DNA of 64,000 nucleotides from Tubulanus polymorphus (lineage: Eukaryota > Nemertea > Palaeonemertea > Tubulaniformes > Tubulanidae): contig NC_134025.1 in the NCBI RefSeq assembly GCF_964204645.1, positions 1,741,001-1,805,000 on the forward strand, read 5' to 3'. The position numbers and the translations under genes are program-made. Every line of letters starts with the position of its first letter. The stretch's first letter is position 1. Of this stretch, positions 3,001 through 31,400 are shown one piece after another. The notes beneath the pieces were generated by a model that was given only the letters and a program-made list of their open reading frames with translations, did no database searches and was not told the DNA's origin.

Positions 3001-6000
3001 CTCAGATTCACAAATGTTTAATGTAAAAGTGAAGAAATCTGAAGTGATCATGAATCATGATTCATTAAACTAAGTGTTCCGTGCAGAGGGTGGGGGGGTG
3101 TAAAACCTCCCAACAAAAATTTCATATTGCCCTGAAATCTTAAAGGAAAAAAAGAAAAAAAAAAGAAAACTTAAAAGAAAACTATCAAACTGATTCATAA
3201 GCTCGTTCTCTGTACTTCGGAAAATGAATTAATATTCTCCGATGAACTCTCTTATGGGGGGAGGGGGTGTGCACTTCTAATGATATGCACTGTTCCCAGA
3301 ATCAGACCCTCAATGACATATTCATTTTAATCATATTAATACAATCCAATGCAATATAACACATTATCATTCAGTTAAAATTCATTATCTGACAATAGAA
3401 ATCGATACGGGTTTATATTTACCAGTATTTCCTGTTCATATAATCAAAGTGAGGATTGTGACAAAACCTTCATGATTGAATGAATGAATAATATCCTGAC
3501 TCCTGTAGACTGTTATTAGTTCCGTTACGACTTCCTCTTAGAAACAGGATCTCAAAACCCGACAATAGATTTTCAAATAAAATACCAGGAATTATGAAGA
3601 GAGCCGAACCTTCAACAGGTTTTGCACATACACTATATACCTATCTGTTGTAATATATTACATAATAAATCCCTGGCTATAGAAATGAAATACTAACTAC
3701 TAATAGACTCTAAACCAGTACTAACCCTGCAATTATTATTACATATACCAAGCGAATTCCAAGTTTCGTTATGAAAACTGTTAGGCATAACTCACCGCAG
3801 CAAAATATTCCCTTAGGGAAACAGCAGAAATGCCAGGCTGCATAAAATTATTGTTGTAAATGCTAATCTTTAATATATTCACTCGTATTTTGGGTAAAAA
3901 TTAAGAGAGAACCTTTTCTACATAACTACAGGACGCGGTTCCACAGTTCTGAGTTCTGTCTCTCGAAATCATAAATAACGAGTCAAACTTGTGAACTGTG
4001 GAACAGATTCCTGAACGTTGAGCGTGAAATCAGGATGGCCACTTTCCGCTCATTTACAAATCCCAGAGTTTTTTTCATGTGATTACACAAAATTCCCAGA
4101 GTGAATCAGAGAAATTTCTAGGCTTAAAAGGTTATAATTCATTCATTTTTCGTTGAATCTCCGCAAACTGATAAAGAAACATGAGGTCAATAGCATCATC
4201 TGAATTCCCTGAATTGTCCAGGCTTAATTAAATTTGGTTAAATAGGTCAAATTCCTTCAGATATCCTTTGAGATTTGCCTAATTTTTTCTTTCTAGGTTT
4301 TTCTGATTCCCTGAGTTGTCGGTGGCCACCCTGGAATATAAATCTTAAAAATTTTCTTGTAATTTACCTATTATATTAAACAGTGATATCCACTGAGTTA
4401 AGACGCTAATATTTGATTCTATTGCGAAACTTTTCTTACCTTGATGATTCTCTCTCGATTCATCGTCTGCTGGGTGTCTGATTTCCGGCATCGTGACCGT
4501 AGCGACCGACAATGAGTCGTTGTTGTTCGCGGTGATTTGATGATTGTCTCGTTTAACAATCGCGTCCGGACTGTAAGAATCCCTATCCGTGTACGGCATC
4601 AGTTTATCTCTCTTGAATCGACGAATCAACGCATCTTTTATCACGGCGTAAGAAACTTTTCCGACGCGTTTGGCATTTTTCAGAGTTTCCGATTCGTTGA
4701 TAAAACTCGATGATTTCTGCGTTGAATCGTTCGTCTGATCAGTCGGATGATTCTCTTTATATTCACAGTTCGTCGTCGTCGGTTTCGTTCCTCCGTTCGA
4801 CGCGAACACCTTCGACGTAACGGGTAAAAACGAACGAAACGAATTGCGTAATTTTTGAGCTAACGGAACCTGCGTAACGGTCGACGCCGGCGATATTCTA
4901 CCTCCGTCGCTGTTGTTACGAATGACGGATTTTAACGGAGCGAGGTACTGAGATCCGTCACCAGGCGGCGCTTCCGTCTGTATCGCTATAGACTGACTGC
5001 CGTTGTTGTTATCGATATTGTTGGATTTTGAATTTTTAAGGATTCCCTTCGTCGACGCATTCTGCGATTCCGAAGACGAGTTTAAAGTCGCCCCGCTGCG
5101 ACTGAATGAACCGGTCTCTCTATTATAAGTCGTAGATTTCACGTAGGTTTCCGTGACGTCCGCGCTCAACGAATGAGGTAAACGACTGGAATAGATAGCG
5201 TGGTAGATCGGACATTCCTCTTCGCTCGAATTACAATCATCCGCCGTCGGAGACAAATGATAATAACTTTCAACTTTCTTTTGATATTGTAAATCCCACT
5301 CGGTCGAGTTCTCGCGTTCCCGATACGTCGGATGATACGTTCCCCAAGGCTCGTCTAAATCCTCTACGACATCTGGTTTGGTCAGGAGGTAATTCTCGCT
5401 TTTGCTCGTCGGGAAATTCAAACACGAATAAGAAGAGTATGCATAGTCTGTATAAGGTGAATGTATAGTAGGGCTATAAGTGTCGTCAGGTAGTGAAGAT
5501 TGTTGAATTATACGATGTCGTAACGAAGGCGACTGATTTTCCTGACCTACAATCGACGGTATTGGACTGATTGATAACTGTGATAACCTCGCTGGACTGT
5601 ATTGTTGTTGTCTGGAAGGCAGCGGGCTCGATTTAAATGAAGGTGTAGGACTGCGTGATGGTAGAGGACTGTGATGATGATGATGATGATGATACCGATT
5701 TACGGAAGGAGAATGCGGCTGCTGCTGCTGCTGCTGCTGCAGCTGCTGTTGATATTGCTGTAGTTTAGGACTATAATGAGGAAGTACAGGCGATCGATGA
5801 ATCTGAAGTTGTTGAAATTCACGAGGTGATAAACGAGGACTGAGACTCGGAGGTCGATACGGAGGACTCTGGTCTCGACTCGGAGGTCGGTATGGAGGTA
5901 ACTCTCTGCGATCCGGTACGCACTGAAGTAGGTCAAACTGGCTCGCTGAAAATACACAACAAAAACAACTTCAACCCGTTATAACCGATGATATAGTTTT

Positions 6001-22369: not shown

Positions 22370-25300
22370 TTAGTGTTTAACACAAGTGGTGAAAATAGCT
22401 CTTTCGATCAGGTCGGCGTCTATACCTTCTTCGCACAGATTCAATAATTTATACATATTTCTCAGCGCATAATTGTTCTACAAGTAAAAAGAGAATGACA
22501 TTCAATTATGACCTCATTAATCACATGAAATAACGGGAATTTGATCACAAACACAAGATAAATTTTGATCAAACTCCAGGGAAGGTCAGAATATATCAGA
22601 ACAACTCGAATTGTGTCAATTGTTTGATAGGGAAGTCTCTTGTGATTGAATACAAAAGTAAGAACAAACATTTCAATATCAAACAAGTAAAAAATATGGC
22701 AAAAAATGAAATCAGACAAAATGAATATATCAAACCAGACAATAGATAACATCCTGATCACTTTCATGTGACTGATAAAGTTTATAATGACTGCACTGTC
22801 TATTCAAATTCACTAGTTTATATGAAGTTGATGTCAATCCTCGAGTTGACAACGAAAAATTGCAGATTGCACCAAAATCAAGCTTAATTTTCAATATGAA
22901 AAAAAGCTTTGCTATTTCATACACTAATAAAAGCAGCTGTTTAAAAACTCAGGCTTAAAGAAAACATGAAACCCAGTCTTACCTGTCCCAGATTGTAACA
23001 GATATCATGGAATCGATTTACAGCAGTTTTATAGCACGTATGTTTCGTCAATTCAACTCTTTGTCGATTCACGCGATTTGCCTGTTCACGATTACGCGTT
23101 ACTCCTTTGATGATTTTGTCCATTTTCTTTTCGACTTCCATTCTCAACTAGAATTACAAAATTAGACGTCGTCATTCAAGCAGCTGAGAATTATTACAAT
23201 CAGGACAGATAGATATCTCATGATGGTATTGACTTACTTTATATAATTCTAAAATCTGTTGATTGATTATCTGTCTCTCTTGCACACTTGTAGAATCGTG
23301 TAGTTGATGATACAGAATAGCTAGAGGGACGTCTTCTTGTGGTACAGCATCGCTCTTAAACAACAACAAAAACACTGTCATATATAAATGTATACATCAT
23401 ATATATATCAGGGTCTGATCTAAGGAATGTAAGGGGGGGCAAGCATATCTGAAATTTCAATTGCCCCCCTCCAACAGCTACTTGCCCTACACAGGCAGTA
23501 TAATTGGTGGCACTATCATCCATTGTATCGAGTGGGAAAAAAAGCTTTGAGACATAAAATTGCAAGTTAGCCCGGCGGACAAGTGAAAATGATAACCTAC
23601 TTGCCCTGATGAGAATATACTTTTCCCGGGCAATCGGACAAGTGCTTAGATCGGAACCCTGTATATATAACTAAAGCCGCCTGGTTATAAACTATTGGTG
23701 ATTATTACCGGTACAACAAATGATTGTTCAGCCGGTCGAATATTCCTCATACCATCCATATTTCCTGCAGCTTGGAAATCAGCTACGGGCAACTTGGAAA
23801 TTTTCTGAAATTTATAGATAGATACTTTATGCATATGATTGATATTTCACTTGTGATTAAACCATTCGAAGTAGTGAAAGATGCCCTACCAAATCTCCAT
23901 ATTCCATTACATGACTGGTGTTAGTCTGTTTCTTCACAATCAAGAACTGCTCTTGAAGCGTTTCAACTTTCAAGTTTTCCTTAAAAAATCATATTAAGAG
24001 AAACTCAAAACAGTACAAAAATCTGTTCATTTTATTTGAATCGACATCGATTGGAGAGAATAAATAGGACAAAATAATATCGATTAATAATTTTATTACA
24101 AGGTTCCTACAATTCCTGGTATCCAGAATTCAAGGACTTTTCAAGGAATTTTCAAGGAGTAATTTTCAAAATTCAAGGAGGTTTTCGCGGTCATATATAA
24201 GGAAAAAAAGTCGAAAATTCAAAAACAAAATCCATGTTTTTCTCAAATTTTGATCAGTTGTTGTGTGTGCCATTTTGGTTTTACATGTTTAAATGTTTTA
24301 AATCTCAAAGTGAAACAACTTTCACTCAAGTCACACAATGAAGAATAATAGAATACACTGTCTTCTGAAAAGGACCTTTTGAAAATTTTTAATAGGACTT
24401 TCCCAGAATTTAAGGAGTTTCAAGGAGTTTATGGATATTTCTCAAAATTAAAGGATTTTCAAGGACCTTGAAATATATATTCAAAAATCAAGGAGTTTTC
24501 AAGGATTCAAGGAGTTGTAGGGACCCTGTATTAAGCGAATATAGAGGAGTGAAGTTAATTGGATGATTGTATATTTACCGTTGTAGAATCATGTAACCAG
24601 TTTACACTGTACACATCACCTAAGTATGTCTTACGTTTCTTATCGTAATAACAAGCATAGGAAGATTGATGTGAGTTTGCAGCAGTACTCGCAAATACTG
24701 GAATATTAAAATCATGCTTATCTGATTATTTATCTAAAAAGCTGATTAATTTACAAGCATTGATTAGATATGCATTAAATACGTATCATTTTCTGTTTCC
24801 GACTGATTTGATTTCAATTCATTCAACACGGAAACTTAATACATATTTCAGAATTCATTTATGGACAATACTTTGAGTTCACTCTATAAACATAAGCGTT
24901 ATACAAAGAGGGTCATTGTCCACTTCTCTCCATGTACATAATCCATGAAATGTCATACGTGTCGAGTGATTGAAAATCAGCCAAATTTTGCGTGCTGTAC
25001 ATACTTCATAAACAGCCCCTTACCCGGCAAAGTCAAACCCTAATGAATACCACTGCATCATTTGTAAAAAGCCAAATCATTATATCAGGGTTAATATAAG
25101 CTCCTCTCCTTCATACTGAAGTAAAGTGAAGCAGGTCTGGTGTAGGAGGTGGTACATGGCGAGTACAGACAAGATCGGTCAATACCTTATCAGAATCTTC
25201 CATCCATTTTACGCTATAAACATCACCTAAGAAGGTTTTCCTCTTCCTGTCGTAATAACAGGAATACGACGACTGATGGGCGTTGGCAGCCGTTGTTGCA

Positions 25301-27150
25301 AATACTAGACATTGTATAAAATTCTCCATTCACATAGGTACATTCTTTCAATGAACCGACTAATAATTCAAACACATACATCAAATACTTACTATTCCAA
25401 TCACTAGGTAATGAACCTTCAAATATAGACCCTGATTCACACGCTTCAACGTAGAGAACCATCTGAAAAAGACGTTAATCTACATATCATTACTGAAATT
25501 ACTGAGAGTTCAACAAACAGAGAAGTTAAGTCGATGCTAACCTTATTAAACTGTTTATTTTCATACATCTCTTCTAAAGCCATGAGGAGATCAGCTTTAT
25601 GTAACTATAACCGAACGAATTAAACAACTTATATTAAACCCGATATTAAAAACATCATTCCAAAATGATTTATAATACGAAACATCAAATAAATACCATT
25701 TCATGGGGAAATCCGAGAATTCCAGGAGCTCCGTGATCCACAAAGTTTACGAATACATTGTCTTCAGGACCACTAAAAAATATCATTCTTTTATTAATGG
25801 AAAGCTCTTCGAAATGGAAAGTTCTTGTTTAATTGAAATAGTTGGTCACAAACCTGGCAATAACTTTCCCACTTCCGATGCCTTCCATAGCATGGCTTTT
25901 ACCTCGGAGAATATCGAGAAAATTTTGTGGAGTGACATCCTAAAAAAATATCGATAATCAAAATGATGAATGATAATTAAAAACTGAAATGAACTACTTA
26001 TAGTGAAACCAGTGCCAGGGGCCGATCCAAGCTATATTCCACTGGATTCTATTATTTAGTCAGAAAAATGTGATTAACATATCATTTACTAGAAGTACCA
26101 AATCTAACAGGTCCAGAATGCCTTTAAATACAAGAAAATTGAGTCATTTCGTTGGGGACGAACCCCAAACCCCCTTTAATGAGCTCCGTCGCCGGCATAT
26201 CATTGAGCAATAATTCTTCGGAATTCACCACCTGGATCCGCCCCTGAGAGCATTTTATAATCTATGACTGACCCTTCTTGTATAATCCTTAGGAACCCCA
26301 TGATAAACATCAAAACCGTGGGGATGGTTTATGATAATTCCTGGTGTTGGATTTCTGAAAGTGAAAATAAATAAAACATTTTTATCGGCTGCATTATTTT
26401 CAATGAATTGAATATTTGTTTGTATGAACTTACAGCGTGTTTTCTGCTATATCATCATACATCATAACGACGATATTTTCATCTTTGAATCCATTCGTTT
26501 TCAGAATTTGGTAAGCGTGACAAACATCAGCCTGAAATGTATATCATTAAGGTATCTTTCTACTGGTTGTAACTACTCTAGTGCGTCTGTGGTTTAGCGT
26601 CATAATGGGACATTTTCACAAATCCATCCATTTTAAAAGCTTACAACCACAATTAGTGTGCTTTACTATTTCAATACCAAGTGGAAACTAAATTTTGCAA
26701 TAATATTGGTTTTTAAGAGGGTCATGCTTGAATAGAACTCTGATCATTAGTCTGAATACGAGACGTCGTTACACTACAGTCCCCTACAACTTGTTTGGGG
26801 AACAACGGCTAGATACTAAAATTTTAGACTAATAGATCAGTTAGCAGTGACAACCCCTTTTGATTTGAGTTGAGACGTAGTGTTTGTAGTGTTATTTGTA
26901 AGGCCTAACTGCACTGCAGTTGCAATCAATTACTTTTAGTATTAATTTGCCTTGATTTAATCAATTTGCCTTCGATAATTACCTGATGACGGTAGTTGTA
27001 CCATCCACTCGATCCGGCCACTATTAACGCCCAGTTCGTTCCTGTAGCTGTATCTGATTTATGTTTCTTCAGAATTTCCTCGAAAGGACTACACGAAGAA
27101 AAAACGACGAGACACAGCAGCAATAACAAACACGATTTGACAGCAGCCAT
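22370..27150 (-). CDS. LGMN: legumain (asparaginyl endopeptidase, peptidase family C13)
   Basis: Thirteen coding exons per transcript: 26983-27150, 26434-26531, 26273-26354, 25854-25939, 25697-25772, 25542-25604, 25393-25462, then either 25186-25304 or 24579-24697, then 23890-23979, 23709-23804, 23238-23354, 22983-23147 and 22370-22477. All junctions keep phase, giving 445 residues against 433 in human. The protein opens with a hydrophobic signal peptide ([16 protein letters not shown]). SGWYNYRHQ, the catalytic His158 in NFVDHGAPG and the nucleophile Cys199 in EACESGS are all present. The C-terminal prodomain follows, with its conserved cysteines ([20 protein letters not shown]). Legumain is an endolysosomal protease that cleaves after Asn and is activated by acid autoprocessing. 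Mobile-element remnants occupy two introns. The gene is divergent from the USP16/45-like gene. Confidence 0.96.
23409..23661. mobile_element. MITE-like element in a legumain intron
   Basis: About 253 bp with inverted ends CAGGGTCTGATCTAAG and CTTAGATCGGAACCCTG, inserted in a TA-rich run. A diverged copy in the opposite orientation lies at 33771-33994. CAGGG...CCCTG ends suggest a hAT-like non-autonomous DNA transposon, but I could not settle the target-site length. Confidence 0.7.
24099..24527. mobile_element. MITE-like 'TTCAAGGA' repeat in a legumain intron
   Basis: About 430 bp, dense in TTCAAGGA/TCCTTGAA words. The ends are imperfect inverted repeats (AAGGTTCCTACAATTCC and, reversed, CAGGGTCCCTACAACTCC). 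TATTA is found directly on both sides, a possible target duplication. Partial relatives ending in TGTAGGAACCCTGATA lie near 52.57-52.70 kb and 57.56-57.63 kb. The element sits between legumain exons 8b and 9. Confidence 0.6.
24579..24697 (-). CDS. LGMN: legumain alternative exon 8b
   Basis: A 119-base exon with an acceptor in phase 1 and a donor in phase 0, just like exon 8a, encoding [26 protein letters not shown] and the ending WLHDSTT. It lies 488 bases downstream of 8a in transcript order. Neither copy has a stop or a broken splice site. Because 119 is not a multiple of three, joining both copies would shift the frame, so a functional mRNA can carry only one. Confidence 0.92.
25186..25304 (-). 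CDS. LGMN: legumain alternative exon 8a
   Basis: A 119-base exon, entered in phase 1 and left in phase 0, encoding residues 215-254. It contains [17 protein letters not shown] and KTFLGDVYS and ends WMEDSDK. It is homologous to exon 8b, with the same length and same phases, and differs from it at 10 of 39 residues. The KWMEDSD ending is closer to vertebrate legumain (NWMEDSD). Confidence 0.93.
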
Positions 27151-28459: not shown

Positions 28460-31400
28460 ATGAGAGTTCCTGAATCGAAAAACTTTTCATCGGACAGTAT
28501 GGGTAAAAAACGGCACAAACTGAATAAGAAAGATCTGGAAAGATCGCGTTGTGATTCGTCAGATGATAGCGTTAATAATACAGGTTCGTTTTCAATCATT
28601 GAGGATCCTCAGTACCCACAGCTCACCCGCTAGATGGCGTGTCCATCAATAGGATCACTATCATAATTTAACCTAGTTCATTTTTCTATTAACTTTCATC
28701 TAGATTTTTAGCTTCCCACAAAAAATTTGGGAATTAATTTCTCGCACTGATCTTTTCATTCATCGAATTTGAGAAAGTATCGATATAGAATTTAATTGAA
28801 TTTCAGAAGAAAATACTCACTAGAGACACCTGGTGGATCCTCGCTTGCCAGAGTCGAATGTAGAATCGTTGTATTTCACGGTTTTTCTTTTTTCGTAATT
28901 TCGATGATTTAATTCTAGGAAAGAAAACTGTCGGTGCCGCTTCGAACGAGAAAGACGAGAAATGTCGCAAGGAAATGATTATGAATTTACCGAGCGTAAA
29001 AGGATTGACGAATCTCGGAAACACGTGTTTTTTCAACGCGGTTTTACAAGTTTTATGTCAAACAGAAGAATTGGAGAATATTCTATCGACTCAGTGCAAG
29101 AAAGGTGCCGTATTACATCTACCGGCCACGAGAGGTAAAGAGGAAAATGATGATGATAGACTCAGCGATGAGGAGGATCGAGTGGATGATGATGTTGATG
29201 ATGATGATGATGAAGAGGACAGCGATGATACAGAATTATATTCAAATCTGGTAATATTTCAATAATTTTTATTCCCTGGTATTAAAGGGGTAAAAAATTG
29301 GTCAGTTCTCTCCAAAAAAAAACTAGAAAATCGAATTTTCTTCGATAGATATTACTTGAAAATCATTTGTTTTGTTGTTTTTTTTTTCAGTTACCAATCA
29401 CGCTAACATTACCAGAAGGTGGCGCTATGGCGCAAGCACTCGCATCTGTTCTCAACGATATGAAAACGACTAGAAACGGTTCAATAAGTCCCAGTACATT
29501 ATTCCGTCAAGTTTGTAAGAAGTGAGTATCGAATTAAATCCTATCGGTTGCGCTTTCAAAAAGTCGTAACGGTAAAAATGTTTCGATTTGTCTGTTTTTA
29601 GAACGCCACAATTCAAGGGCGCTCAACAGCAGGATAGTCATGAATTATTGCGTCATCTTCTCGATGGAATGAAAGTCGAAGAAATCAGGGTAAGTTTTTA
29701 TTCGAACGAACGAAAAGATTTGCTGCATATTTGATTTGTTGACGTTTTAACGGTAAATAATAATTGATATTTTCTGTAGAGATCGCAAGCGTCCATATTG
29801 AAACATTTCAATTTACCTCAGAATGTGAATCCTAAAAATGTGCCCGAAGATGTGAAACAGAAATTGAAAGGTATTTTTTCTATCAAATTGTCCGGTTATG
29901 AATTAGCCACGTGTATATTTATAGTACATACATTTAAGGTGTTAAATAAGCTTTGCTGATGTAGTTTATTGATTGAGTTATATTGATTTTTAGCGTCTGG
30001 TCGTCTAGCAAAGAGTAATACATTCGTTGATAAGTTGTTTGGCGGTTACCTCATTAGTACAGTAGTCTGTGAAGAATGTAATATCGTAAGTAGTTTATAT
30101 CCATCGCAAATAACTTTGATTATAACAAAAGTTTTACCTATTCGTTTCTGTTGCCCGTTGAAGCCGGTTCCAATGAATGCTTTAAGCCTTGTCGATGTTA
30201 AGTCATGTAAATTGGCCCAAAAAACTCATAGAATGAAAACAGTCATTCGGAGGCTATAAACTCTAAAATGATGATTTATACCGATTTATCCTTTAGGCAT
30301 CTCATGTATTCGAGCCATTTCTCGATCTGTCGTTACCAATTAGTGAAGAAAAGGTAACAATTACGAATATTTTCCCGAACTGATAAACGTACAATCATCT
30401 CTATCGTTTATAACGTGTATTCAATTCTCTATTTTAAGCCGTCGCGTTCTCTACCAATTCATAAAAAAGACACAAGCGGAGGTGGCAGCGTTGAACAGAG
30501 TATAATCAGCTCATCGGTGAAAGATGATATCAGCGATAAATACACAGCACCGATCAGTAAACATAAAGAGAAAATGGCTCGCAAAAACGCGAAAAAAGAG
30601 GTCAGTTGATGACCCAGTTCTACAGTTCATTTTCACTTAACGTAGTTAAAAGAGGAGGCGCTAATAATTCCGGTTGAACCTGAGACAGATAGATTCCATA
30701 AATAGAAATCGGGAAGATACTGCACTCTTTAGGATTGTTCTCTACCAATTCGGGAATTCTCTTCTGGCGAGAATTCATTCAACCTAATTGCGCTCTATTC
30801 TGGAATTGCGTAATCTGAAACTATAAACTTGATAGAAGTGACCAGTAGAGAAAACTGCAGTCCTCGTTTATGATTCGTTCAAATTTTGATTAATGTTCAA
30901 AGATCTTACGGTAATTTATCGTTTATTTTTTATTCAAGGCTAAACTAGCGCGGAGAAAGGCACGACAAAAATCTGTATCATTGACTGAAAAAGTCGACGA
31001 GGCTGATGATAAAGAGGAGGCAGATGATAAAGAGGAAATTAATGATAAAGAGGAAGCTGAAAATAGCGATGATAAAAACATTGAAGATGATGAACAATCT
31101 GAATCAGGTAAATTATTATAAAGCACTAAATTCAACATCCCAACTACGCAATTAATGGAACTACAGTAACAACAAACTTCATCGAAGTTGTTTTAGCAAG
31201 ATTCTGCTGTTTATGTTGTCAACCCTGGATTATCCAGTACCGTCAGTTTTACGCCCAAATTTGGAATTCTGATTACAAAGAAAGTATGAGGGAACTTTAG
31301 ATTCTCTGATGTGTAAGATTTTAGAATGAAATGTTGTTTTGTTTTAGATGATGGAGAACATGAACAGACTGGTTTCGCCGATGTTGAAGATAACACGGAG

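Follow-up and report, generated by a model that had tools for sequence, protein, structure and literature searches.

Tandem duplicated exons for the substrate-cleft segment of legumain in Tubulanus polymorphus, probably used mutually exclusively

Legumain, an asparagine-cutting enzyme, is a key protease of lysosomes and of digestion, and it can ligate peptides as well. Its c341 segment builds the S1 pocket's north side together with the non-primed substrate cleft. This segment also shapes S2–S4 (PMC5995516). In the human enzyme, Ser216 and Asp231 are part of the S1 pocket (PMC4357240), and the c341 residues Arg213, Ser215, Tyr217, Tyr220, Tyr221, and Tyr228 line the non-primed cleft and contact inhibitors (PMC9579014). 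The equivalents in Arabidopsis legumain gamma are Ser247 and Asp269 (S1), Trp248 (S2), and Cys252/Cys266 (S3) (PMC5995516). For plant enzymes, a gatekeeper residue within LAD1 has been proposed to bias the protein toward ligation or hydrolysis, with some exceptions (PMC7101308). Tandem mutually exclusive exons, for their part, are a known phenomenon. The parallel best known from related animals is COQ2, in which rhodoquinone-making helminths, annelids, and molluscs choose between exons a and e, two mutually exclusive versions that differ by an invariant Phe to Leu and an invariant Ala to Ser change (PMC7434440).

The window analyzed here was a 64,000-nucleotide stretch of the T. polymorphus genome (contig NC_134025.1, positions 1,741,001 to 1,805,000), and positions are counted from its first letter unless another contig is named. 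A complete legumain (peptidase C13) coding gene was rebuilt on the minus strand at 22370..27150, with 13 coding exon positions from the signal peptide to the stop codon (ATG at 27150, stop at 22370) and GT-AG boundaries at all introns. Membership in family C13 was indicated by the catalytic His and Cys motifs in the translation (DHG and EACESGS) and by Pfam, where the isoform containing exon 8a scored 371 bits against PF01650 (Peptidase_C13) and 50 bits against PF20985 (legumain prodomain); the isoform containing exon 8b matched both models as well. The predicted product aligned over nearly its full length with mammalian prolegumain structures in the PDB (E ~1e-130), and the equivalents of the S1 residues Arg44, His45, Ser216, and Asp231 (YNYRHQ, SSY, LGD) could be aligned with human legumain in both isoforms. 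In the 268-Mb genome, whose assembly gaps could hide a further locus, protein searches found no second legumain locus or processed copy and returned one weak match (E 0.16, contig C7). To the extent of this search, the animal has one legumain gene, so exon choice would be its sole route to two catalytic domains. A ubiquitin carboxyl-terminal hydrolase gene (Pfam UCH; it looks like USP16/45) lies in divergent orientation on the plus strand at about 28460–29230, starting approximately 1.3 kb upstream of the legumain ATG.

Two copies of the eighth exon, 8a (25186..25304) and 8b (24579..24697), are found on the minus strand, each 119 nt long and separated by a 488-nt intron (24698..25185). The common upstream exon 7 (25393..25462, minus strand), which carries the catalytic Cys, ends in phase 1 with the donor gtaagt; the first residue of either copy, an Ile, is encoded by a split codon, and the common downstream exon 9 (23890..23979, minus strand) begins at a codon boundary. 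An earlier note on this DNA had proposed the pair as mutually exclusive exons, and its coordinates, lengths, and phases (intron 7 in phase 1, outgoing phase 0) were recovered as it gave them, together with the GT-AG sites and the absence of stop codons in both copies. Its description of the splice sites as clean is fair, but they are not uniform: scored with an approximate consensus matrix, the 8a donor (AAG/gtattg) is among the weaker ones in the gene, whereas the 8b donor (ACG/gtaaat) is average and scores above it. By reading, the sites of both exons look U2-type. With either copy as the sole eighth exon, the prolegumain open reading frame is intact at 445 aa. The claim that the frame itself enforces a choice was borne out, as inclusion of both exons leads to a stop after residue 279 and inclusion of neither to a stop after residue 219. 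With phase 1 in and phase 0 out, exactly one copy is usable per productive mRNA.

No direct repeat in the region is longer than this pair, which spans 127 nt at 74% identity with a spacing of 607; the two are adjacent homologous exons of equal length and phase, with 75% amino-acid identity. Both translated segments match solved legumains along their whole length. This, with the intact full-length reading frames obtained from both copies, argues that their similarity is not due to chance. Degenerate CTTGAA/TTCAAGGA repeats (families D2–D5) run through about 24100–24530, in the intron that separates 8b from exon 9, and are perhaps an old mobile element.

Exon 8 codes for c341, a segment of the caspase-like catalytic domain that corresponds to human residues ~204–243 (numbered by counting from Cys189 of the human chain in the alignment), and all of the human and Arabidopsis cleft residues listed above map within it. 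The S1 Ser and Asp (Ser216 and Asp231) were said to be retained in both copies, and they are, in agreement with PMC4357240; both isoforms should be active asparaginyl proteases. The changed residues had been described as concentrated at the C-terminal end. Four of the ten changes do fall in the last six residues, but positions 218 and 228 (human numbering) lie in the substrate cleft. Residue 218, which by alignment is the plant gatekeeper position, is Ser in 8a and Ala in 8b, and the aromatic residue 228 of the S3–S4 loop is Phe in 8a and Tyr in 8b. The gatekeeper of OaAEP1 (Cys247) lies 30 residues past the catalytic Cys217, as does Gly249 of AtLEG gamma past Cys219; the human equivalent is Ala218, next after Ser-Ser-Tyr, with one residue fewer between it and the catalytic Cys189 according to the alignments. 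Related plant chains in the structure database differ from Gly to Val at the aligned position. The gatekeeper logic comes from plant enzymes and need not carry over to animals.

After the loop, the MEDSD stretch common to the mammalian and plant structures shown (its last residue being variable in plants) is kept in 8a and replaced by LHDST in 8b. With this departure from MEDSD, the 8b isoform might in principle have reduced activity or none. A separate likeness was observed between the 3′ end of 8b (24583–24600, LHDSTT; TACATGATTCTACAA) and exon 11 (23238..23354, minus strand), the activation-peptide/prodomain linker, which contains LHDSTS (TACACGATTCTACAA) close to where the human autocleavage stretch aligns. 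The two agree at 14 of 15 nt in the same frame; the score was reached by 1 of 150 codon shuffles, uncorrected for several comparisons, and the likeness is possibly due to chance.

The age and constraint of the two copies bear on the strongest competing explanation, which is that one of them, most likely 8b, is a non-functional relic or a rarely spliced cryptic exon and that 8a alone is used. The missing MEDSD residues of 8b and its downstream position in a longer intron context are what such a relic might show. The copies differ at 32 of 120 nt (6, 5, and 21 at codon positions 1, 2, and 3) and at 10 of 40 residues; the earlier count of ten changes stands, with a denominator of 40 rather than 39 when the codon split with exon 7 is included. 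By NG86, dN was 0.17 and dS ~2.7 (saturated), for a dN/dS of ~0.06. Codon bootstrapping gave dN of 0.07–0.29 and dS of 0.7–3.7 or saturated, a range so wide that the dS of the pair is known only to be large. In simulations, the pair was allowed to diverge until it reached the observed 32 differences, one copy being free of selection. The neutral copy accumulated a mean of 17–18 amino-acid differences, and 10 or fewer were reached with P < 0.001; an omega of 0.5 in one copy gave P = 0.02, and an omega near 0.1 in both copies fitted well. The flanking introns are unalignable (27% and 33% identity, near random), which, together with the simulation, indicates that the duplication is old and that both copies have been kept as protein-coding sequence. 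Judged from one genome, both are under purifying selection. Decay of one copy, which the earlier note had named as a result that would count against its proposal, was not seen in this genome, where the simulation rejected a neutral copy.

Comparison with the enzyme family points the same way. Exon 8a matches human legumain at 28 of 40 residues and 8b at 27 of 40, and at the differing sites each holds family residues that the other lacks (T207, M238, E239, and D242 in 8a; A218, Y228, and N236 in 8b). By this comparison, neither copy is simply the original, and such reciprocal loss and retention is expected if both exons are used. A relic would hardly hold family residues that its partner lost, keep its exact length, frame, and both splice sites despite saturated synonymous sites, or carry the better-scoring donor, and we consider this explanation improbable.

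A positive control was available in the same genome, where the COQ2 a/e pair is present on contig C5:20099500-20105500, with exons at ~1940–2110 and ~3011–3190 of that piece. The upstream exon encodes SGITLNWGVLLGWSAVQGSC (e form) and the downstream exon SGMTFNWGALLGWAAVHGSC (a form), and the pair bears the diagnostic Phe to Leu and Ala to Ser changes. Its dN was 0.26 and its dS 2.4, and at this level of comparison the divergence signature of the legumain pair matches that of the established COQ2 pair. Given its COQ2 a/e exons, the animal probably makes rhodoquinone. Exon structure of this kind suggests a spiralian, for example an annelid or mollusc; a search of the assembly for mitochondrial COX1 found none.

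The second exon could also serve mainly as a poison exon, with double inclusion leading to a frameshift and decay and so setting the dosage of legumain rather than its protein sequence. The stop that both exons create together would suit this role, which needs no constraint on the protein; yet third positions account for two-thirds of the changes, dN/dS stands at about 0.06, and both copies retain the active-site residues, and we rate this explanation as less probable still than a relic. An assembly or haplotype artefact, or an exon belonging to another legumain gene, has nothing beyond general possibility in its favor and is highly improbable in view of the 27% nucleotide difference, a likeness that ends at the splice sites (which also excludes a recent segmental duplication), the failure to find a second legumain exon set in the genome, and the single genomic place of both 8b and the middle 262 nt of the 8a–8b intron.

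We infer, with a probability of roughly 0.87, that the two exons arose by an old tandem duplication and are used mutually exclusively, most likely tuning the enzyme made from a single legumain gene. Their mutually exclusive splicing is strongly supported on sequence grounds. Each legumain mRNA would take exactly one of the two exons, and products of double inclusion or skipping, with their frameshift and early stop, would presumably be removed by nonsense-mediated decay. Exclusion would then be enforced by the frame itself through decay of the wrong products, with regulators setting the choice; the weak 8a donor against the average 8b donor could leave room for such regulation, and exon choice may differ by tissue. 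At 488 nt, the intron separating 8a from 8b exceeds what simple steric exclusion would allow, and RNA pairing between the three introns, as in a docking/selector system, was not above that of shuffled sequences.

Such splicing would probably yield, from one gene, two enzymes whose active sites are lined differently. The choice would most likely tune substrate or inhibitor preference, or stability and zymogen behavior. A stronger version, in which the c341/gatekeeper differences switch the catalytic character of a single animal legumain gene (for example between protease and ligase/transpeptidase, or between a digestive and a lysosomal substrate range), is possible but doubtful. Exons 8a and 8b are alternatives for precisely the loop that decides substrate fit in legumain. 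Should mutually exclusive use be borne out, it offers a natural pair of enzymes identical but for 10 residues in a substrate-cleft segment, which would make the determinants of cleavage versus ligation and of substrate range in animal legumains directly testable. It would also place a protease among the enzymes in which mutually exclusive splicing exchanges the core.

Among other genomes, no relatives were found in viral contigs and no match was found in plasmids; bacterial genomes held only distant Bacteroidales C13 proteins, which are uninformative on exons. In gut Bacteroidales, the legumain-like C13 domain lies C-terminal to a long N-terminal region that resembles, by eye, a periplasmic ligand-binding protein. 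No earlier report of mutually exclusive legumain exons was found in open-licence literature; mammalian legumain is not known to have a mutually exclusive exon at this position, and the literature searched contained none. Homology to the mammalian enzyme (PDB 4fgu, 4aw9, 4d3y, 4nok) extends across the catalytic domain and prodomain.

Like previously described mutually exclusive exons, 8a and 8b are ancient, tandem, and homologous, with key residues kept and subtle differences elsewhere; among those described cases, functions in brain and muscle are over-represented and ion transporters stand out. The COQ2 a/e exons (PMC7434440) resemble the legumain pair as tandem homologous exons in an enzyme core with few active-site residues changed, although the gene and the enzyme class are different, and RNA-seq and genetics tie COQ2 exon choice to its quinone product whereas for the legumain pair exclusive splicing and a functional effect are predicted from sequence. 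The plant enzymes AtLEG beta and gamma, OaAEP1, and the butelases draw their diversity from the c341 loop and the gatekeeper, the very segment that is alternative here, but the plant c341 has a proline-rich insertion and a disulfide that are absent from 8a and 8b. The plant legumains and ligases are separate genes, whereas here there is one gene with two exons; if exon choice does switch catalytic character, splicing would do in this animal what gene families do in plants.
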